In this document: in pieces, positions 28,457-47,702 of the stretch
Numbering within the stretch: position 1 is the stretch's first letter
Layout: every line of letters starts with the position of its first letter
Made by a program: the position numbers and the translations under genes
The notes under the pieces: model-generated
The model's input: the letters and a program-made list of their open reading frames with translations, nothing else
The model's database searches: none
Told to the model about the DNA's origin: nothing
Assembly (NCBI RefSeq): GCF_900199405.1
Contig: NZ_LT963430.1
Location: 3,069,605-3,133,604, forward strand
Origin: Beduinella massiliensis
GTDB taxonomy: Bacteria; Bacillota; Clostridia; Christensenellales; Aristaeellaceae
Length of the DNA: 64,000 bases
Reading direction: 5' to 3'

Positions 28457-30847
28457 TCATCCCATCACCACGCGCACGTCGTGCGTCTCCCCCGCGCTGA
28501 AGACGGGAAGGGACGATACCTGCTTCCCATCGACGAACAGGGCGGAAACGCCCTTTTCCACGTGCTCCGGGTTCTCCACCTTGATGCGGTACGTCGCGCC
28601 GCGCCACTTGCGCACGGCCGAAAAGCCGTCCCACTTGGCGGGAATGCACGGATCGACGACCAGCTCCTCCCACTCGGGGCGAATGCCCAGCAGGTACTGC
28701 GTCGCGGCGAAATACGCCCATCCCGCGCTGCCCGTCATCCATGGATGGCGCGCCCTGCCATGCGCCGTGTGGTCCTTGCCCATCACGAACTGGCAGTAGG
28801 CGTAGGGCTCGCTCTGGCGCACCTCGATCTTGTCGTTCTGGTTTTCGGGCAGCAGCGCGTCGTAAAACTTCATCGCGCGCGCGCCGCGGCCGATCTTCGC
28901 CTCTGCCACCCAAGCCCAGGGATTGGGGTGACTGAAGATCGCGCCGTTTTCCTTGATGCCCGCGTACACCCGCGTGACGAAGCCGATCTCGTCGTCCGGC
29001 GTCTCAAACGAAGGAGCGTTGAGCATCAGGCCGTAGGGGGTGTAGAGGTATTCGTCCACCGCGTCCATGGCGCTTCGCGCCTGCGCCTCGTCCGCCGCGC
29101 CGCTGATGACCGCCCACGTGTTGCTCTCCATGTGCACGCGGCCTTCCGTGTCCTGCTGCGTGCCGATCCGCCTGCCGCTCTTCGTGATGCCGCGGATGAA
29201 CCATTCGCCGTCCCACAGCTCGCGCCGGCAAACCTCGCGCACGCGGGCGCGCATCTGCGCGTACTTCTTCTCCTCTTCCGAACGCCCCAGCGCCGCGCAC
29301 AGGTCGCAGAACGCGTCCAGCGCCCACAGGTGCAGGAAGGAGACCATCGCGCTCTCCCCGCCGCCCAGGTTCAGGCAGTCGTTCCAGTCCGCGCGCAGGC
29401 CCTTACAGACGCCGTTCTGGCCAACCTGCTGCGCGGAAAAGTCGAGAATGCGGCGCATGTGCTCCAGCACCGTGCCCTCGCCGCCGTCCGCATAGGTGAA
29501 TACTTCGTCGGCAAAGGATAATTCTCCTGTCTCTTTCATGTATTCGCAGATCGCGGGCACGAGCCAGAGCGCGTCGTCCGCGCAGACGTCCTTCAGGCCG
29601 TGCACGATCTGGGATTTATCGGGCGTGGGCACCACCGTCGGGGACTTGAACGACTGCTGCTTTTCCGCCGGCTCAAACCACGCGGGCTCGAACAGGTGCA
29701 GTCCGTATCCCTCGCTGGTAAGGCCCCGTAGGAGCTGGCCGATGCGGCGTTTGCAGCCCTCGGGCTCCGCATGGGGAATGCACATCGCGTCCTGCGCGGT
29801 GTCGCGGTATCCAAGGCCCCTGCGCCCGCCGACCTCGATGAACGAGGCGAAGCGTGAGAAGAGCACGTTGACCTCGCTTTGGTACAGGTTCCAGGTATTG
29901 AGGCTCGTGTTCATGGTGCTGCTCGGCGTCATCACCTGCAGCGCCCCGAGCTTCTGCTCCCAGTAGCCATGCAGCGCCGCGCGCGCGTGGTCCACCGCCT
30001 CCGGGCTGTAGCGCTCGCGCGTGCGCCGGGCCGCGCGCTCGTCGCCCTGCCCCAGGAAGAAGAGCAGGCGGCGGCGCTCGCCGGGGCGCAGCGTCAGGCG
30101 CTTCATCAGCGCGCCGACCGGGTTGCCGCCGAGCTCTTCAGAGCCCGTAAGCTTGCCGCACTCCACGCCCAGCGGGTTCTTCTCTGTGCGCCAGCCGCCG
30201 CCCAGGAAGGCGTCGCGGCAGCCCTCGTAGCCGTCCGGCGTCTCGCCCAGCGTGAAGTACTGATAGCTGTCCTCCTCGTAGTGCAGCTCGATGAGCGCCG
30301 CGCCGTCGCGGTAATGCGATCCCGCCGCGTAAAGGCTCATCTGAAAATTCTGATTGTCCATGTCGATATGGTGAAAGGAAAACTCCACGTAGCCGAACGC
30401 CGAAAGCGTCCGCACCTCTCCGGATCGGTTTTCGACCGTCACGTCGAAGATCTCCACGTCGTCGTCCCGGGGGATGAAGAGCGTCTGCGAGGCGTAAATT
30501 CCCTTGTATTCGCATTCAAAGGTCGTATAGGAAAGGCCATGCCGGCACCGGTATGCGGCCTCGCTCAGCGGCTTATACGTCGGCTGCCAGCTTACCGACC
30601 AGTAATCGCCGTCCGCGTCGTCGCGCAGGTAGACGTAGTGCCCGGGGCTGTCCATCGGCACGCCGTTGGGGCGAAAGCGCGTGATGCGGTGATACTGCGG
30701 CGATTTGTACCAGCAGTATCCGCCGCCGTGGTGGGCGATGCAGGCCGCCATATCCTGCGTGCCCAGGTAATTCGTCCAGGATACCGGCGTGTCCACGCGG
30801 TCTACGACGTACTCCCTGCGGGCGTCGTCAAAATGTCCGTATTGCAT
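28457..30847 (-). CDS. chbP: N,N'-diacetylchitobiose phosphorylase, GH94
   Basis: The 796-residue protein is collinear with GH94 chitobiose phosphorylases over its whole length. Characteristic stretches are VSWTNYLGTQ near the start, PGHYVYLRDD, FASFIEVGGRRGLGYRDTAQD, KSPTVVPTPD, the catalytic-acid region LRADWNDCLNLGGGES near residue 490, and PNPWAWVAEAKIGRG. These match N,N'-diacetylchitobiose phosphorylase better than cellobiose phosphorylase. The enzyme splits (GlcNAc)2 with phosphate to GlcNAc-1-P and GlcNAc, sparing ATP. No signal peptide is present. The phosphohexomutase downstream fits processing of the sugar-1-phosphate. The function call rests on sequence likeness only. Confidence 0.9.
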   Translation of the reverse strand: MQYGHFDDARREYVVDRVDTPVSWTNYLGTQDMAACIAHHGGGYCWYKSPQYHRITRFRPNGVPMDSPGHYVYLRDDADGDYWSVSWQPTYKPLSEAAYRCRHGLSYTTFECEYKGIYASQTLFIPRDDDVEIFDVTVENRSGEVRTLSAFGYVEFSFHHIDMDNQNFQMSLYAAGSHYRDGAALIELHYEEDSYQYFTLGETPDGYEGCRDAFLGGGWRTEKNPLGVECGKLTGSEELGGNPVGALMKRLTLRPGERRRLLFFLGQGDERAARRTRERYSPEAVDHARAALHGYWEQKLGALQVMTPSSTMNTSLNTWNLYQSEVNVLFSRFASFIEVGGRRGLGYRDTAQDAMCIPHAEPEGCKRRIGQLLRGLTSEGYGLHLFEPAWFEPAEKQQSFKSPTVVPTPDKSQIVHGLKDVCADDALWLVPAICEYMKETGELSFADEVFTYADGGEGTVLEHMRRILDFSAQQVGQNGVCKGLRADWNDCLNLGGGESAMVSFLHLWALDAFCDLCAALGRSEEEKKYAQMRARVREVCRRELWDGEWFIRGITKSGRRIGTQQDTEGRVHMESNTWAVISGAADEAQARSAMDAVDEYLYTPYGLMLNAPSFETPDDEIGFVTRVYAGIKENGAIFSHPNPWAWVAEAKIGRGARAMKFYDALLPENQNDKIEVRQSEPYAYCQFVMGKDHTAHGRARHPWMTGSAGWAYFAATQYLLGIRPEWEELVVDPCIPAKWDGFSAVRKWRGATYRIKVENPEHVEKGVSALFVDGKQVSSLPVFSAGETHDVRVVMG

Positions 30848-34778: not shown

Positions 34779-35618
34779 TCAGCACTTGATCGCGCCGCTC
34801 GTGAGGCCCGCGATGATGTGCTTTTGAAAGCAGGCATAAATGACGATGATCGGTGCGATGGAAAGGACGAACGTTGCGAACGCGAGGTTGAATTCAAAGG
34901 CGTATTGGGATTTGAAGTTGTACTGAAAGAGCGGCAGCGTCCAATAAGCATTGGATCTGTTGAGCACCAGCAGGGGCATGAGAAAGTCGTTCCAGATCCA
35001 GAGCGAGTTGAGGATGATGATCGTGCCCGTCATCGGCTTCATCATGGGAAAGATGATGCGCGTGTAGGTGGTCAGGATGCCGCTTCCGTCGATCCGCGCC
35101 GCCTCTTCGACCTCCCCTGGGATCACCGTGCGCAGGTAACCCTGATACAGGAATACGCCCTGCGTCAGGGAATAGGTGATGTACAGCACGATGAGGCCGC
35201 CCTGATGCATCAGGTTCATCGCGCTCATCTGCTGCGTCATGGGCAGCATGAACACCTGGAAGGGAATCAGGATGCCCGCCACCAACAGCGCGTTGAACAC
35301 CTTATAGTAGAGGCGGCCGATGTTCTTGTGAATCGCATAGGCGGTCATCGGCACGACGGCCAGGATGCCCGCAACGGACGCGACCAGGATCAGCACGGAG
35401 TTTTGAAAGTACTGGATGAAGTTGTTCTTGGCGATGACCGTCTTGAAGTTGTCCAGATACAGGGAACTGGGCAGCGCGAAAAAGTCGTTCATGCTCTCCG
35501 CCGTCGGCTTGAACGCCGTCAGCACGGCGAGATAAAAAGGAATGCAGATGACGAGCAGACCGGCGGTGAGCACGGCATAGGCCAAGACCCTCGAAAGACG
35601 TTTGCCGGATTTAGCCAT
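34779..35618 (-). CDS. Sugar ABC transporter permease, MalG/MsmG-like
   Basis: A 279-residue permease with six hydrophobic segments and the EAA loop EEAARIDGSGILTTYTRIIFP. It is the MalG-side component of a carbohydrate uptake family-1 importer and the last gene of the operon; its start overlaps the stop of the MalF-side gene by 8 bases (35611-35618). Neighbours (nucleoside hydrolase, ribokinase fusion) hint at a nucleoside or pentose-containing substrate, which is inference. Confidence 0.93.
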   Translation of the reverse strand: MAKSGKRLSRVLAYAVLTAGLLVICIPFYLAVLTAFKPTAESMNDFFALPSSLYLDNFKTVIAKNNFIQYFQNSVLILVASVAGILAVVPMTAYAIHKNIGRLYYKVFNALLVAGILIPFQVFMLPMTQQMSAMNLMHQGGLIVLYITYSLTQGVFLYQGYLRTVIPGEVEEAARIDGSGILTTYTRIIFPMMKPMTGTIIILNSLWIWNDFLMPLLVLNRSNAYWTLPLFQYNFKSQYAFEFNLAFATFVLSIAPIIVIYACFQKHIIAGLTSGAIKC

Positions 35619-36486
35619 CCTGTTTCACCTCGAATCTCCTGCTGACGCCAAGCTGCACCACGGTAAAGATGAGGATGACGGCAAATACCGCGATGGAAAG
35701 CGCGTTGGAATAGCTGAACTTGAGCTCTTTAAAGGCGTAGTTGTAGATGAGCATGCCGACGGATTCCGTGGTTCGGGCCGGTCCGCCGCCGGTCAGGGCG
35801 TAGATGTTGTCAAAGGCCATCAGCCCGCCCTTGATGGTCATGATCGTGACGATGTTCAAGGTGGGGATCAAAAAAGGCACCTTGATGTGCAGAAACGTCT
35901 GCCAGCTGTTTGCGCCGTCCAGCCAGGCTGATTCGATCAAATCCTGCGGCACATTTTGAAGGGCCGACAGAAAGAGCAGGATGTTCGTCGAAAGGCCCTG
36001 CCAAAGCGCCGTAAAGACGACCGCCCAGAAGGCGAGGTGCACATTGCCCAGCACGCTGCTGGACAGCACCTTGGAGCCGATCTGCTTTCCGATCTGCGGA
36101 AGCGCGTTGGTAAACAGCTGATTCCAGATCAGCGCCACGGTCACCGTGCTGAGCACGGCCGGCAGGAAGTACATCGTCCTGTAAAAGCCGCGGCCGCGAA
36201 TGACGGTGTTGAGCATCAGCGCGATCGCCAGGCCCAGCACCAGCACGCCGATCAGCATGACGATCGTGTATTCCACCGTAAACGAGGCGGTGCGGGCGAT
36301 CTTGCGGTCGGAGAACAGGGACGCATAATTCGCAAGGCCGATAAAGTTTTTGTCTCTGCTGATGCCGTTCCAGTCGAGGAGGCTGTATGCCATGCCGCTT
36401 ATGAGCGGCATGATGAAGAAGACGGCATACAGCGCGGCGGCCGGAAGGCTCATCAGAAAGTAGACGATCCTGTTGCGTTTTTGCAT
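35611..36486 (-). CDS. Sugar ABC transporter permease, MalF/MsmF-like
   Basis: The 291-residue protein has six hydrophobic segments and the EAA-type loop IESAWLDGANSWQTFLHIKVP. It starts at 36486 (MQKRNRIVYF); GAAAGG lies about 8 bases upstream. The frame is open further upstream but without the family start. It joins the MalG-side permease to make the membrane channel. As with the first importer, no ATPase gene is near, so a shared ATPase is likely. Confidence 0.92.
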   Translation of the reverse strand: MQKRNRIVYFLMSLPAAALYAVFFIMPLISGMAYSLLDWNGISRDKNFIGLANYASLFSDRKIARTASFTVEYTIVMLIGVLVLGLAIALMLNTVIRGRGFYRTMYFLPAVLSTVTVALIWNQLFTNALPQIGKQIGSKVLSSSVLGNVHLAFWAVVFTALWQGLSTNILLFLSALQNVPQDLIESAWLDGANSWQTFLHIKVPFLIPTLNIVTIMTIKGGLMAFDNIYALTGGGPARTTESVGMLIYNYAFKELKFSYSNALSIAVFAVILIFTVVQLGVSRRFEVKQDG

Positions 36487-36570
36487 GCATTCACAGCCTT
36501 TCGTGGGTAATTCAGGGCCGAACCGCCCTCGAAACGGCGATGCCATTTCTCCGGCGGTCCGGCCAGTTCA

Positions 36571-37782
36571 TTACTTTCCGAAGATCTCGTCGAGGTTCTC
36601 GTTGAGCGACGCACGGTCGTGCAGCACGAAATATGACGCGAGCTCCTGCTGCCATTCTCCGTCCACGCCGGAGGCCCAGTTGAAGTGCAGCCACGGTTCG
36701 CTGCGGCCCTCTTCGTAAAGCAGGCTGGTCACGCCCTCGATCTGCGGGGAAACCGCCTTGACGCCGTTGATGGTGGAGGGGGACTTTTCACGGTCGGCAA
36801 AGTACTGCGCCGTCTCGGTGGAAGTCAGGTAGGCGACGAAGTCCTGCACCTGTTCCGAATTCTGGGTGTCCGCCGCGATGGAAAAGGCGAGGTCGATGCC
36901 GTACTGGATCATGCCGTTGCCTTCGTCGTTGGGCATCGGGAACATGGCAATCTCGTCCTGCATGCCCGCCTGCTCGGTCACGGCAAGCGCCCAGATGCCC
37001 TGCGGGAGCATGAGCGCTTCACCGCGGCTGAACAGCGCGACGGCCGTGCTGTAGTCGGTGCTGATCGAGTCCGGCTGCGAATTGTCCTCAAAGAAGTCGA
37101 GCCAATCGACCATCTTCTGAAACAGGGCGGAATCTTCCATCTTCACGCCGCTGTCTGCGAAGAGCGCATTCGCCGCCTCCGCGCCCTCCAGGTTGAGGAG
37201 GATGTTCTCCGCAAGGTGGCCGACGGTCCAGCCTTCCTTAAAGCTGGTGGCCATGGGAATATAGCCCGCCGCCTTGATCGCCTCGCACAGCGCCTTCAGT
37301 TCGTCCCAGGTGGCCGGCGCCTTCAGGCCCAGCTCGTCAAACTTCGTCTTGTTGTAAAAGATGCCCCAGCCGTTGACAGTCATGGGAATGCTGTAGCTTT
37401 TGCCGTCGACCTCGATGCCGGACAGAAAGCTTTCGTTGATGTTCTTGAGATACTCGCTGCCCGTCAGATCCATGTAGTAGCCCTCAGCCGCCTGCAGGCG
37501 GAAGTCCGATTCGTTCGGATACACGCCCAGGATGTCCGGCAGGTCGCCGGAAGCCATGCGGGAGTACAGGACGGTCGCCGCGTCAGGCACCTGCGTCTGC
37601 GTAACCTTTACGCCCGGATTTCCTTCCTCGTACATCGCGAAAATCTCGTTGAACAGGTCTACGGTCTCGCTCTTGCGCGAGAAAAACTCGATCTCCGCCG
37701 CGTCGTCCGCCAGCGCCAGAGCGGATGTCAGGCACATCGCCGCCGCCAGGATCAGGGCCAACCCATGTCTCATCGTCTTCAT
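36571..37782 (-). CDS. ABC transporter extracellular solute-binding protein, MsmE-like
   Basis: A 403-residue secreted protein. The signal peptide ends in ALALA (signal peptidase I type), and the Cys at residue 17 is not in a lipobox. The body is a family 1 carbohydrate-binding fold (PDAATVLYSRMASGDLPDI, VNGWGIFYNKTKFDELGL). It precedes the two permease genes and follows the nucleoside hydrolase by 58 bases. The ligand may be a nucleoside or a pentose-containing oligosaccharide, judging only from neighbours. Confidence 0.92.
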   Translation of the reverse strand: MKTMRHGLALILAAAMCLTSALALADDAAEIEFFSRKSETVDLFNEIFAMYEEGNPGVKVTQTQVPDAATVLYSRMASGDLPDILGVYPNESDFRLQAAEGYYMDLTGSEYLKNINESFLSGIEVDGKSYSIPMTVNGWGIFYNKTKFDELGLKAPATWDELKALCEAIKAAGYIPMATSFKEGWTVGHLAENILLNLEGAEAANALFADSGVKMEDSALFQKMVDWLDFFEDNSQPDSISTDYSTAVALFSRGEALMLPQGIWALAVTEQAGMQDEIAMFPMPNDEGNGMIQYGIDLAFSIAADTQNSEQVQDFVAYLTSTETAQYFADREKSPSTINGVKAVSPQIEGVTSLLYEEGRSEPWLHFNWASGVDGEWQQELASYFVLHDRASLNENLDEIFGK

Positions 37783-37840: not shown

Positions 37841-38734
37841 TCATGCCTTTAGCTGCGGAAACACCCTGGCAAAAAACAAATCCTTAAACCGCTCGCAGTC
37901 CACCTTTGCCGCCACTGCGGCGTTGGCCGGCGGCTCGCTTCCCCAAAACGCGTCCACCCTGCGGGCGGTAACGCCGCGCGAAAACTCCCCTGAGCGCTCT
38001 ACGCGCAGCTGCATGGGCTCAAATTCGATCAGCTCCGGATGGGCGATCGCCGCGGCTGTAAGCGGGTCGTGCAGGATCGGCATGTGGTGCGAGCGCTCCA
38101 TCCACTTCCTCGTCCAGCGGCTCAGCAGCCGGACCCGTTCGTCGTCTACGGCTTGCATCGCCTCCACCTCCTCCGGCGTCATCCGGCACTTCAGCGTCAC
38201 GTCCAGGCCCACCATCGTGACCTTCTCGTAGCTTCTGAACACGATGTCCGCCGCTTCCGGGTCGCAGCACACGTTCCACTCGGGATAGTGTGCGGAATAC
38301 ATGCCGCACATCACATACAGCGGCACGCCGCGCATCACGTCGGGCGCGATCCTGACGGCGCAGGCGATGTTGGTCAGCGGGGCGATCGCGAGGATCGCCG
38401 TGTCCGGGTGCCGCCGCGCCGTTTCGATGATAAAGCGCACGGCGTCCATGCTGCAGTTGGGTTCAACCGGGTTCACCCCCTCGTCCCAGTGCGCCGGGAT
38501 GTCCTCTACGTCCGCCGGGGTGTTCAGCGGCTGCCTGATTCCCTCCGCCACCGGAACATCCAGCCTGCCATACGCGCGCAAAAGCTGTAACACCAGCTGG
38601 CTGCGAAGACGCGTATTGCGAAACGCCGTCGTAACGCCCAGCACGTTCAGCCCGGGTTCCGCCAGCGCGTAGGCAAGTGCGTAGGCGTCGTCGATGTCGT
38701 CGCCGATATCGGTATCGATGATCACATTCTGCAT
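37841..38734 (-). CDS. Nucleoside hydrolase (IunH family)
   Basis: The 297-residue protein has the Asp cluster DTDIGDDIDDAYAL at residues 7-20 that binds Ca2+ and ribose in inosine-uridine nucleoside hydrolases, plus the family-typical PLTNIACAV and the C-terminal HDPLTAAA. It splits ribonucleosides to base and ribose. The start at 38734 is the family start; GAGAGG lies about 9 bases upstream. It leads the importer operon and is divergent from the LacI-ribokinase gene, which could phosphorylate the ribose it frees. Confidence 0.93.
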   Translation of the reverse strand: MQNVIIDTDIGDDIDDAYALAYALAEPGLNVLGVTTAFRNTRLRSQLVLQLLRAYGRLDVPVAEGIRQPLNTPADVEDIPAHWDEGVNPVEPNCSMDAVRFIIETARRHPDTAILAIAPLTNIACAVRIAPDVMRGVPLYVMCGMYSAHYPEWNVCCDPEAADIVFRSYEKVTMVGLDVTLKCRMTPEEVEAMQAVDDERVRLLSRWTRKWMERSHHMPILHDPLTAAAIAHPELIEFEPMQLRVERSGEFSRGVTARRVDAFWGSEPPANAAVAAKVDCERFKDLFFARVFPQLKA

Positions 38735-38781
38735 GCCGTGAAAGACCTCTCTTCTTTTCCTGCCAAGGATTGTAAACCTTT

Positions 38782-38879
38782 TTCTTAAAATGTTTTTCTT
38801 GTGCACACTGTACCACAGGAGTTATACAGTGTCAATAGATAAAAATCATTTTCCTAAAATATTTTTCCCATTTGTGCAC
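38782..38879. promoter_or_regulatory. Pair of operator-like direct repeats in the divergent region
   Basis: Site 1 (38782-38806) and site 2 (38851-38879) share TTC-YTAAAAT-RTTTTTC and then TTGTGCAC; the spacing inside differs by 4 bases. The cores (AAAATATTTT type) are palindromic, as is GTGCAC. Site 1 sits at the leftward start site and site 2 just upstream of the rightward -35. They are good candidates for binding by the divergent LacI-type regulator. Confidence 0.65.
38807..38835 (-). promoter_or_regulatory. Promoter of the nucleoside hydrolase / importer operon
   Basis: On the minus strand TTGACA (38835-38830), 17 bases, TACAGT (38812-38807). Operator-like site 1 covers the region directly downstream. 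Confidence 0.7.
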
Positions 38880-38883
38880 GCTA

Positions 38884-38912
38884 TTGCAATCTGCAACCTT
38901 TTCCTCTAAAAT
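38884..38912 (+). promoter_or_regulatory. Promoter of the LacI-ribokinase gene
   Basis: TTGCAA (38884-38889), 17 bases, TAAAAT (38907-38912), about 32 bases before the start. Operator-like site 2 ends 4 bases upstream of the -35. Confidence 0.65.
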
Positions 38913-38943
38913 GATATTTATCATGATTTACCGGGGGATGCAT

Positions 38944-40848
38944 ATGACCATCAAGGATATCGCCAGGGCCGCGGGCGTCTCCATCGCGACCGTCTCCAAG
39001 GTGCTCAACGGCAAGGAAGAGGGCGTGGGGGAAGACACCAGAAACCGCGTGCTGCAGGTCGTTCAGGAGATGAACTACGTTCCCTATTCTAAGATTCGCC
39101 ACCGTCTCGCCCAACAGAGCGGCATCGTCTCGCTGATCTTGCCCAGCCTTGAGACGCCCTTTCTCTGCGCCTTTTACGCGCATGTTTCCCGCCTATTCCA
39201 GTCCACGGAATATGCGCTGTCCCTCGCGCTTACGGGGTTTGACCCGGAGGCCGAGCGCGCGGCCATAGACAGCTTCTGCGAACGGCAGGCGGCCGGTATC
39301 CTCCTGTATCCCTCCGGCGAGGAGGCCTGCCGTCATCTTCTTACGCACCCCGAAAGGCCCTCTTCCGTCGTGCTGATCGACGGCGAGGGCGACACGCCCC
39401 TGCACACGCGCGTGTCGCGGCTCCACGCAAAGGCCGCCGCGCAGGCGGTGCAGCTGCTCGTCCAGTCCGGTGGCCGGCATATCGCCCTGATCCTGCATCC
39501 GGGCCCGACCTTCGTCTTAGAGCAGCTCACGGGCGGATACCGGCGCGCCCTGCTCGATTCGGGATACGAATACGACAAAAGCCTCGTCGTTTCCCTGGAC
39601 AGCTTCTTCGATCAGTCCGCGAACATGCTGCTCGGCCTCGGCGTCAACGGGATCGTCTGTCAGGACATGGCCTGCGCCCGGGCGGTGTACGCCTTTTTGT
39701 CCAAGCAGCACCTGCGCGTCCCCGACGACGTCGCCGTGATCTCGTTGGAGGATTCGCCCTACACGCCCCTGCTCACTCCCCCGCTTACGACCTGCGGCTT
39801 TGACCCCAAAGAGCTCGCGGAAAGCTGCTTTCAGGCGCTCATGGCCCAGCTAAGGCCCAAGGCCGGCCAGGCGGCGGAGCCCCTTCCGCCCCTGAACGCG
39901 CACCTCATCAGCCGCCGCAGCGTGGAGCGGGAGCTTCATCCGGAGCCAAGCAAAATTGCCGTCGTCGGCTGGCTGAACATGGACGTCAACCTCGAAATCC
40001 CCTATCACCCCGCGTTGGGCAACGCGCTGACCGCCACCCATATGAACTGCCTGCCCGGCGGCAAGGGAGGAAATCAGGCGATGGGCGCCGTGACGCTGGG
40101 CGCTTCCGCAGTCATGATCGGCGTGCTGGGCAACGACCTGTACGGCAAGCAGATCTACGCGCAGCTCATGCGCGGCGGCGTGGACATGCAGGCCGTGACG
40201 TTCGACGAACACCACCCGACCGGCACTGCCTACATCAACATCATCCCGGACGGTTCCAGCACCACGATCGGGAACGCCGGCGCCAACTGCTGCCTGGACC
40301 GCGAATATATCGCCCGTTACGAACCGCTGATCGCGAAGAGCAGCTATTGCCTGATGGAGGGCGAAGTGGACGAGGAGGCGCTCGCCTATCTCTTGGGCCT
40401 CTGCCGGCGCTGCGGCGTCTGCTCGATCTTCAAGCCCAACCTGACCCCGACGCCGCGCTTTATGCGGGAGGTGATGGGGCTGGCCGACATCCTCGTGCCC
40501 AACGAAAACGAGCTCGACATCCTTCTCCCCGGCACGGGCGACGTGGAGAAGAAGGCTCGCGCGCTCCTCGCGCTGGGCGTTCAGCACGTGATCGTCACCC
40601 GGGGAGCAAAGGGCTGCCTGTGGGTGCACGGCGGCCAGTCCAAAGCCTACCCGGCCGCCTCCGTCCGCTGCATCGATTCCACCGGCGCGAGCGACGTCTT
40701 CATCAGCTGCCTCGCCGTCCTGCTTACGGAAGGCAAGGACATGGACAGCGCCATCCGTTACGCCAACGCCGCAGCGGGCTACAGCGTCATGTGGAAGGGC
40801 GTCCAAAACGCCATCCCGGACCGGCAGACTCTCGAATCCCTCTGCTAG
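38944..40848 (+). CDS. LacI-family regulator fused to a ribokinase (PfkB) domain
   Basis: The 634-residue protein joins two complete modules. Residues 1-22 are a LacI helix-turn-helix (TIKDIARAAGVSIATVSKVL) followed to about 330 by a periplasmic-binding-like sensor domain. Residues 337-634 are a PfkB kinase: VVGWLNMDVN start, GGKGGNQA at 372-379 and the catalytic loop IDSTGASDVF with Asp584; the usual GAGD is GASD. It can be expected to bind the divergent operator-like sites, sense a sugar and phosphorylate ribose or a similar sugar. The start at 38944 has GGGGG 6 bases upstream. The frame is continuous, with no stop or shift at the junction. Confidence 0.93.
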   Translation: MTIKDIARAAGVSIATVSKVLNGKEEGVGEDTRNRVLQVVQEMNYVPYSKIRHRLAQQSGIVSLILPSLETPFLCAFYAHVSRLFQSTEYALSLALTGFDPEAERAAIDSFCERQAAGILLYPSGEEACRHLLTHPERPSSVVLIDGEGDTPLHTRVSRLHAKAAAQAVQLLVQSGGRHIALILHPGPTFVLEQLTGGYRRALLDSGYEYDKSLVVSLDSFFDQSANMLLGLGVNGIVCQDMACARAVYAFLSKQHLRVPDDVAVISLEDSPYTPLLTPPLTTCGFDPKELAESCFQALMAQLRPKAGQAAEPLPPLNAHLISRRSVERELHPEPSKIAVVGWLNMDVNLEIPYHPALGNALTATHMNCLPGGKGGNQAMGAVTLGASAVMIGVLGNDLYGKQIYAQLMRGGVDMQAVTFDEHHPTGTAYINIIPDGSSTTIGNAGANCCLDREYIARYEPLIAKSSYCLMEGEVDEEALAYLLGLCRRCGVCSIFKPNLTPTPRFMREVMGLADILVPNENELDILLPGTGDVEKKARALLALGVQHVIVTRGAKGCLWVHGGQSKAYPAASVRCIDSTGASDVFISCLAVLLTEGKDMDSAIRYANAAAGYSVMWKGVQNAIPDRQTLESLC

Positions 40849-46232: not shown

Positions 46233-46322
46233 GCGAAAAAGGCCGTTTTTTGAAATATATTTTGGTTTTCTGGTTTATATCGTATTTATTTCAAAAATAT
46301 TTCGATTTTGTTAAATTCTTCA

Positions 46323-46351
46323 TTGACATCCGAAAACGGATGTCATAAAAT
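46323..46351 (+). promoter_or_regulatory. Promoter with a perfect palindrome in its spacer
   Basis: TTGACA (46323-46328), 17 bases, TAAAAT (46346-46351). The inverted repeat TGACATCCG-AAAA-CGGATGTCA (46324-46345) covers the -35 box and the whole spacer. This position is typical of a repressor operator. No regulator gene of obvious fit is adjacent. Confidence 0.8.
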
Positions 46352-46376
46352 AGTCACAGAGTTATGCAAAGGAGAG

Positions 46377-47702
46377 ATGGACTTGAAGCAGAATATGCTT
46401 TTTTCGCTGCGCCGCGCCTGCGCAGCCGGTGTCTGCACGGCGATGCTTCTGGCGCCCTGCGCCGCATTGGCCAAGGACTATAAAAATTTGAAGCTGGGCA
46501 AGGAAAGCACGGAGGTAGCGGATTTGCAGCAGCGCCTCAAGGATTTGGGGTACTACACGGGCCGCATCTCCGGGCACTACGGAGAACTGACCGAATCTGC
46601 CGTCATCGCCTTTCAAAAGGACAAGGGGCTCGACGCGGACGGCATCGCCGGTCAGTCCACACAGGAGATGCTCTTTGAGGGCAAAACTTCGTCCTCCTCG
46701 TCCTCTTCTTCAACGTCCTCCCCGTCCGCCAGCTCTTCGTCCAGCCTGCTCAAGGAAGGCAGCAAGGGCGACGACGTCCGCCAGCTTCAGACGAAGCTCA
46801 AGGATCTGGGGTACTACAAGGGCAGCGTCACCGGCAATTTCGGCAGCCTCACCGCGCAGGCGGTCATGGACTTTCAACGCAAGAACGGCCTGAGCGCCGA
46901 CGGCGTCGCCGGGAAAAAGACGCTCGCGCTGCTGAATAATTCCTCGTCCGGGTCCGGCGGATCCTCCTCCAGCTCGTCCGAATCGGCCACCCTGCCCACG
47001 TCGGCAGTGCTCAAGATGGGCAGCAAGGGCGATGACGTGCTTTCGCTGCAGAAGAAGCTGAAGGAGCAGGGCTATTACTCCGGCGACCTCACCGGCAACT
47101 TCGGCAGCCTCACCGCCCAGGCGGTCATGAGCTTTCAGCGCAAGAACGGCCTGAGCGCCGACGGCATTGCCGGCAAGAAGACGCTCTCCCTGCTGAACGG
47201 CGCCTCGTCGTCCGGTTCGGGCGGTTCGTCCTCCGGCTCGTCTTCGACCACGAGCCCGAACGCGGGCACGGCCGCCAAGGTGCAGAACGTCAACTGGTAC
47301 ACGATGCGCGGCAAGTACCCGAACGGCACCATCATGACGGTCTACGACTTCTCGACCGGCTACAGCTGGAACCTGTCCGTCATGTCCAAGGACAAGCACT
47401 GCGACACGGAGCCCGTCACCGCCGACGACACGAACAACATGTACAAGGCGTTTCTGGGCCTCAGCAAGTGGACGATCAAGCCCGTGTGGGTGACCTTCCC
47501 GGACGGCAACACCTACATCGCCGCGACTTACACCGTCGCTCACGGCACGCAGCACAACACGCAGAACAACTTCAACGGTCATATCTGCGTGCACTTCCCG
47601 CTCTCCATGTCCGCGGCGGAGGAGATCGGCGACTGGGCCGTCAGCATGCAGAAGGCGATCGTCACCGGCTGGGACAAGACACAGAAGATGGCCGCGCAAT
47701 AA
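46377..47702 (+). CDS. Secreted protein with three peptidoglycan-binding domains and a C-terminal domain
   Basis: The 441-residue protein has a signal peptide ending CAALA, then three PG_binding_1 domains (LGKESTEVADLQQRLKDLGY; GSKGDDVRQLQTKLKDLGY; GSKGDDVLSLQKKLKEQGY) joined by Ser/Gly-rich linkers. The C-terminal 140 residues contain NNFNGHICVHFP, with His and Cys in an arrangement like that of cell-wall-modifying enzymes, but I do not recognise the fold with certainty. It is probably secreted to the wall. The start may be ATG 46377 (2 bases from GGAG) or TTG 46383 (8 bases away, giving MKQNMLFS). Domains 2 and 3 come from a recent internal duplication. Confidence 0.88.
   Translation: MDLKQNMLFSLRRACAAGVCTAMLLAPCAALAKDYKNLKLGKESTEVADLQQRLKDLGYYTGRISGHYGELTESAVIAFQKDKGLDADGIAGQSTQEMLFEGKTSSSSSSSSTSSPSASSSSSLLKEGSKGDDVRQLQTKLKDLGYYKGSVTGNFGSLTAQAVMDFQRKNGLSADGVAGKKTLALLNNSSSGSGGSSSSSSESATLPTSAVLKMGSKGDDVLSLQKKLKEQGYYSGDLTGNFGSLTAQAVMSFQRKNGLSADGIAGKKTLSLLNGASSSGSGGSSSGSSSTTSPNAGTAAKVQNVNWYTMRGKYPNGTIMTVYDFSTGYSWNLSVMSKDKHCDTEPVTADDTNNMYKAFLGLSKWTIKPVWVTFPDGNTYIAATYTVAHGTQHNTQNNFNGHICVHFPLSMSAAEEIGDWAVSMQKAIVTGWDKTQKMAAQ
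46758..47198 (+). repeat. Tandem domain duplication in the peptidoglycan-binding gene
   Basis: About 180 bases at 46758-46937 are repeated with high identity at 47019-47198 (offset 261). They encode the second and third peptidoglycan-binding domains. The Ser-rich linker between them is also repetitive. This is inside the coding sequence and could change copy number by recombination. Confidence 0.8.

Follow-up and report, generated by a model that had tools for sequence, protein, structure and literature searches.

The window analysed here, a stretch of 64,000 nucleotides of Beduinella massiliensis, contains a gene in which a LacI-type regulator is fused to a ribokinase-like protein, divergent from a nucleoside hydrolase gene. 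This arrangement raises the question of what the kinase half does. A sequence-only reading of the locus had proposed that the regulator phosphorylates the sugar it may sense, so that one protein senses and uses the sugar.

The fusion gene and its divergent region

The fusion gene is a single open frame of 634 codons encoding, by sequence and Pfam, a LacI helix-turn-helix (HTH), a LacI sensor core and a complete PfkB/ribokinase domain. Its start was assigned to ATG 38944, which has a GGGGG ribosome-binding sequence a few bases 5'; the in-frame TTG and ATG codons upstream of it (38872-38938) are more poorly placed as starts of the fusion. The features of the region are as follows.

34779-35618, minus strand: ABC permease 2 (BPD_transp_1, PF00528)
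35611-36546, minus strand: ABC permease 1 (BPD_transp_1, PF00528)
36571-37782, minus strand: CUT1-type solute-binding protein (SBP_bac_1, PF01547, 127.7 bits)
37841-38737, minus strand: nucleoside hydrolase, DTDIGDD and HDPL motifs intact (PF01156, 210.8 bits)
38769-38801, no strand: putative double operator A (sites 38769 and 38782, 13 bp apart; pair score 22.5, 0 of 20,000 shuffles)
38807-38835, minus strand: predicted promoter of the hydrolase/importer operon, TTGACA-17-TACAGT with TG (10/12 consensus)
38838-38870, no strand: putative double operator B (sites 38838 and 38851; same motif, pair score 16.1)
38884-38912, plus strand: predicted promoter of the fusion gene, TTGCAA-17-TAAAAT (9/12 consensus)
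38944-40848, plus strand: LacI-ribokinase fusion gene (634 aa; Pfam LacI, Peripla_BP_3 and PfkB; 67 fused relatives)
38947-39084, plus strand: LacI-type HTH (residues 2-47; PF00356, 67.5 bits)
39085-39117, plus strand: hinge region (residues 48-58; Arg at the PurR L54 position; model pLDDT <50 at 48-58)
39127-39924, plus strand: LacI core (sensor) domain, pocket residues altered (residues 62-327; PF13377/PF00532)
39952-40821, plus strand: PfkB/ribokinase domain (residues 337-626; PF00294, 168 bits; Foldseek 1rkd)
40057-40080, plus strand: GGKGGNQA sugar-binding motif (residues 372-379; corresponds to RbsK G41-A48)
40684-40695, plus strand: GASD anion hole and catalytic Asp (residues 581-584; Gly to Ser at 583)

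The core matched PF13377 with 70.5 bits, Peripla_BP_3 covering residues 169-327 and Peripla_BP_1 residues 62-263, so that the HTH and the core of a LacI/GalR protein are both present. In an AlphaFold2 model of the fusion (one plasmid-derived row was left out of the input), the domains, including the LacI core, were well-formed (mean pLDDT 89.3). Foldseek placed the kinase part nearest to E. coli ribokinase with bound ribose and ADP (1rkd, 1.6 Å rmsd; apo form, 2.2 Å), and its score against the ribokinase equivalog TIGR02152 was 231.5 bits, below the curated cut-off of 299.65. An assembly artefact or frameshift behind the fused frame was ruled out, since the frame is fused at full length in 67 other loci as well. 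The continuous frame and the two motifs described in the sequence-only reading were thus confirmed, and no frameshift or stop, which that reading had named as grounds for its rejection, interrupts the frame between the domains.

The divergent layout that it had described, a nucleoside hydrolase followed by a binding protein and two permeases, was borne out by Pfam. The PF01156 score and the DxDxxxDD and HDP motifs mark the first gene as a nucleoside hydrolase; it is RihC/UriH-like, with scores below the equivalog cut-offs. Pfam found no ATPase gene among the frames of the hydrolase/importer run and no separate ribokinase in the window's own operon. On one side of the region lies a large glycoside phosphorylase-like frame (28457-30847), and on the other a protein with peptidoglycan-binding-like repeats (46308-47702).

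A palindromic motif, TTAgGAAAAtaTTTTCcTAA, was obtained by training on 63 fusion loci with the window left out; 39 of these loci had two sites at a spacing of exactly 13 bp, which was much more frequent than any other. The family operator pattern from the other loci was TTAGGAAAA-nn-TTTTCCTAA, often doubled at 13 bp, and when words were counted in the upstream regions of 64 non-redundant fusion loci, window included, ATTTTCCTAA occurred in 14 loci against 0.2 expected. The window carries the doubled, 13-bp-spaced operator in two arrays, A and B, whose score was reached by none of the 20,000 shuffles. No other exact match to their core patterns occurs in the 4.18-Mb genome, weaker matches being at the level of a reversed-pattern control. 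The predicted hydrolase promoter (38835-38807, minus strand) lies between the arrays: A overlies the expected start of hydrolase transcription, and B lies between the two predicted promoters, upstream of that of the fusion gene. The LacI half would be expected to bind these sites in vitro.

Fusion operator sites are CG-centred in only 13 of 82 cases, whereas those of side-by-side RbsR/RbsK systems mostly are; a permissive pattern detected CG-centred sites close to the start in 11 of the 13 unfused rbsR-rbsK pairs. Overlapping operators 12-13 bp apart were also seen upstream of tandem rbsR-rbsK genes (L105, L108, L025 and L095), and the doubled arrangement may therefore be older than the fusion.

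The fusion family and its gene neighbourhoods

The sequence-only reading had suggested searching related genomes for the same domain pair and for conserved neighbours, and both were found. Of 292 loci the best 80 were read; 67 other full-length fusions were collected, 68 non-redundant ones with that of the window. Full-length fusions occurred in four other genomes of the window's family (300 sampled) and on an Enterococcus raffinosus megaplasmid, and searching species genomes with an alignment added about 60 (Lachnospiraceae, Enterococcus, Paenibacillus, Ruminiclostridium and others). A single-sequence search of genome contigs returned no fusion, whereas the alignment search did; the window's genus was represented by two further sampled species, neither of which gave a fusion at the thresholds used. 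At 13 loci rbsR and rbsK are separate neighbouring genes. Four fusion-like loci of the first phylum survey (L012, L013, L015 and L017) were rejected as tandem rbsR-rbsK genes with a stop between them.

A maximum-likelihood tree computed from a subset of the kinases placed the 26 sampled fusions in one clade (support 99/96) adjoining unfused kinases of Cohnella and Tepidanaerobacter, and a larger quick tree with 45 fusions agreed. The window's protein, which has the HTH, LacI core and PfkB domain in one frame, falls inside this clade as sister to all other fusions, on the deepest branch, which is long (1.3). The kinases nearest to the fusions belong to side-by-side RbsR/RbsK systems (E. coli rbsK-rbsR; tandem rbsR-rbsK in Thermoanaerobacter and Tepidanaerobacter; rbsK-rbsR in Cohnella), which comprise the same two protein families, encoded by adjacent genes and dedicated to ribose; unlike the fusions, they are separate proteins with the LacI pocket and the anion hole intact. 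Since a single clade lies beside the unfused kinases of tandem pairs, the simplest history would be that the fusions arose once, near such pairs, by a single fusion of adjacent genes. No model among the best NCBIfam matches spans both halves, and the PDB matches listed for each half are all too short to accommodate both halves. A search of the open-access literature found no paper on a LacI-ribokinase fusion, and the main text of a LacI regulon survey (PMC4052901) mentions neither the fusion nor ribokinase; the architecture must, however, already exist in protein databases.

Neighbours were counted at the 45 loci, window included, whose flanks each extended to 6.5 kb or more. A nucleoside hydrolase was present at 28 loci and an ADP-ribosylglycohydrolase-family gene at 7 others; a separate ribokinase was present at 30. 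The importers were CUT1, ECF or ribose/nucleoside-type ABC systems. The order of the window, permeases-binding protein-hydrolase-fusion, recurs in Robinsoniella, Dorea and others (L042, L043, L046 and L068). On the E. raffinosus megaplasmid (L032, 286-8899), the fusion, an ECF importer, an MFS transporter, a nucleoside hydrolase and a free ribokinase form one cluster. The window's genome has a free GAGD ribokinase elsewhere (C3:879195). The operon there (L130, 6698-14080; C3, ca. 872.7-880.1 kb) comprises an ordinary LacI gene, a CUT1 importer, a PF03747-like hydrolase frame resembling the PF03747 genes at other fusion loci, and the stand-alone GAGD ribokinase, which is the gene set of many fusion loci in unfused form. 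Comparable regulons are known: in Corynebacterium glutamicum, the genes for ribokinase, a uridine transporter and a uridine-preferring hydrolase form an operon that has a dedicated repressor, UriR, and bifidobacteria have RbsR2/RbsR3 regulons (PMC3146418, PMC4746261). As at the fusion loci, regulator, ribokinase, nucleoside hydrolase and nucleoside transporter are under one control, but regulator and kinase are separate and the transporters differ.

Residue changes in the two halves

Allosteric repression is usually taught with LacI regulators as its example, and the sensing function is almost always ascribed to their pocket; the functional roles of the PurR and RbsK residues compared here are established in these families. 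Like the classical regulators PurR, LacI and RbsR, the fusion has the HTH, the LacI core fold and palindromic operators, but it has an extra kinase domain, has lost the pocket Arg and has probably lost the hinge Leu. PurR Arg196 of the pocket was retained in 0 of 68 fusions as compared to 13 of 13 tandem RbsR, Asp275 in 1 of 68 as compared to 12 of 13, Phe74 in 5 of 68 as compared to 12 of 13, and hinge Leu54 in 13 of 68 as compared to 11 of 13. Of the columns conserved in tandem RbsR, the fusions keep 95% in the HTH and 41% in the sensor core, and at equal kinase divergence (30-50% identity) the ratio of sensor to kinase identity was 0.52-0.59 in fusions against 0.82-0.83 in tandem pairs. These results suggest that the LacI sugar pocket was dismantled across the fusions.

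The window's protein keeps 15 of 15 such HTH columns and 23 of 48 sensor columns. Its pocket changes are Arg196 to Leu, Trp/Arg147 to Gly and Asp275 to Glu, so that the effector-pocket pair R196 and D275 is replaced by Leu and Glu. The hinge has Arg at the PurR L54 column but Leu one residue on, an assignment that depends on the alignment. Since the protein is less eroded than its relatives (PurR F73 and the PF(F/L) motif kept, Leu at F74, Glu at D275), its LacI pocket may have retained some ligand binding.

In the kinase half, N14, D16, GGK, N46, E143, N187, T223, D249 and D255 are nearly invariant among the 68 fusions. The window's protein keeps all compared E. coli ribose-contact residues (N14, D16, GGK41-43, N46 and E143), catalytic D255 and RbsK Gln292. 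The anion-hole Gly254 is Ala in 45 fusions, Ser in 20 (window included) and Gly in 3, as compared to Gly in 13 of 13 tandem and 46 of 46 readable neighbouring free kinases; the Gly that precedes the catalytic Asp in ribokinases ([GA]AGD) is thus missing from the GASD of the window. Among the fusion loci, the anion-hole residue showed no link with whether a kinase is encoded nearby. The equivalent residue of ketohexokinase, Gly257, contacts the beta-gamma phosphate bridge of an ATP analogue through its backbone NH, and the motif is the anion hole (PMC2651755). Catalysis by the fused kinase is probably reduced, and the domain may be a slow enzyme or have no activity; some catalysis might persist with the GGAD and GASD motifs. 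In one fusion subclade (L029, L030 and L031), beside a glycerophosphodiester phosphodiesterase gene and a CUT1 importer, kinase Glu143 is lost (Ala/Asp) and GAGD is kept in two; its ligand is probably a different one.

A proposed sensor role of the kinase half and the alternatives

A pocketless LacI scaffold, a kinase with a kept substrate site and a changed catalytic loop, and operons that mostly have their own ribokinase make a sensory role of the kinase the best reading. We consider it somewhat probable that the window's protein belongs, as an early branch, to a family of fusion regulators that arose once, in which the kinase domain is the effector sensor on a LacI DNA-binding scaffold, controlling nucleoside/ribose-scavenging operons. 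It was hypothesised that regulation is as described below. The LacI part, having lost its sugar pocket and hinge leucine lever, would bind the doubled 20-bp palindromes between the divergent genes and act as a dimer scaffold, repressing the operon. The fused ribokinase domain, with its ribose and ATP contacts kept and its anion hole altered, would sense the effector. Once imported nucleosides are cleaved, free ribose would appear and, with ATP or ADP, close the kinase lid; the dimer on the DNA would respond to this closure, and repression of the hydrolase-importer operon would be lifted. Ribose released by the hydrolase is likely the signal.

Of the proposal that one protein senses and uses the sugar, the fusion, the layout, the conserved ribose/nucleoside link and the family operator in the divergent region are upheld. 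The complete sensor and complete kinase that it presupposed are at odds with the residues and the neighbourhoods: the LacI pocket is dismantled, the anion-hole Gly is Ser, and a separate ribokinase occurs at 30 of the 45 full-flank loci. The kinase half is more likely a sensor than a working metabolic enzyme. Against this reading, Asp255 and the ATP-site residues, kept in 67 of 68 fusions, also fit a working kinase, and in the window the operon has no ribokinase, the protein is less eroded and its branch is long.

These observations leave room for two less probable alternatives, especially for the window's protein as the deepest and least eroded branch without an operon kinase. In the first, ribose would be both sensed and slowly phosphorylated, so that the signal resets itself when ATP is plentiful. 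The catalytic Asp is not lost from the altered motif (GGAD, GASD) and the ATP-site residues Asn187 and Thr223 are kept, as such turnover would need; the conserved Asp may, however, merely serve to hold ribose, and we regard this alternative as unlikely but worth serious attention. In the second, ranked just after it and likewise unlikely, the protein would be plainly bifunctional, the LacI core sensing ribose or a nucleoside and the fused kinase being the ribokinase of the pathway. Intact sugar, ATP and catalytic Asp residues, the lack of another ribokinase in the window's operon and an ancestral rbsR-rbsK pair of normal regulator and enzyme agree with it; the loss of the pocket Arg in every fusion, a sensor core that diverges faster than in tandem pairs, the changed anion-hole Gly and the separate ribokinases beside most fusions and elsewhere in the window's genome argue against it.

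A ligand of the fused kinase other than ribose (ribose 1-phosphate, a nucleoside or another sugar), with an operon not induced by ribose, is improbable. The score below the ribokinase cut-off would fit it, and ligands may vary in the family, since Glu143 is lost in the glycerophosphodiester phosphodiesterase subclade; however, the window keeps every compared ribose contact and its fusion adjoins a nucleoside hydrolase. That the protein is a chance fusion without sensing, constitutive or degenerate, as its long branch might suggest, is very improbable given that kinase site, operator and neighbours are conserved among 67 relatives.

In ROK-family repressors such as NagC and Mlc, a sugar-kinase fold is the sensing part of a DNA-binding repressor. 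These proteins are an analogy only: their fold is not PfkB, and they have a winged HTH without a LacI core. We consider it evenly balanced whether the fusions represent a PfkB-family kinase turned ligand sensor of a LacI repressor, the LacI pocket being replaced altogether, and thus a second, independent kinase-to-sensor route besides ROK, with a matching loss of the hinge leucine and of CG-centre operator reading. The family is widespread, mostly in gut Clostridia and Enterococcus. If the kinase-sensor reading is true, sensing can move between domains, a fused kinase taking over as the pocket is dismantled; many uncharacterised operons would gain a testable inducer and operator, and the 'ribokinase' labels on fusion proteins may be wrong.
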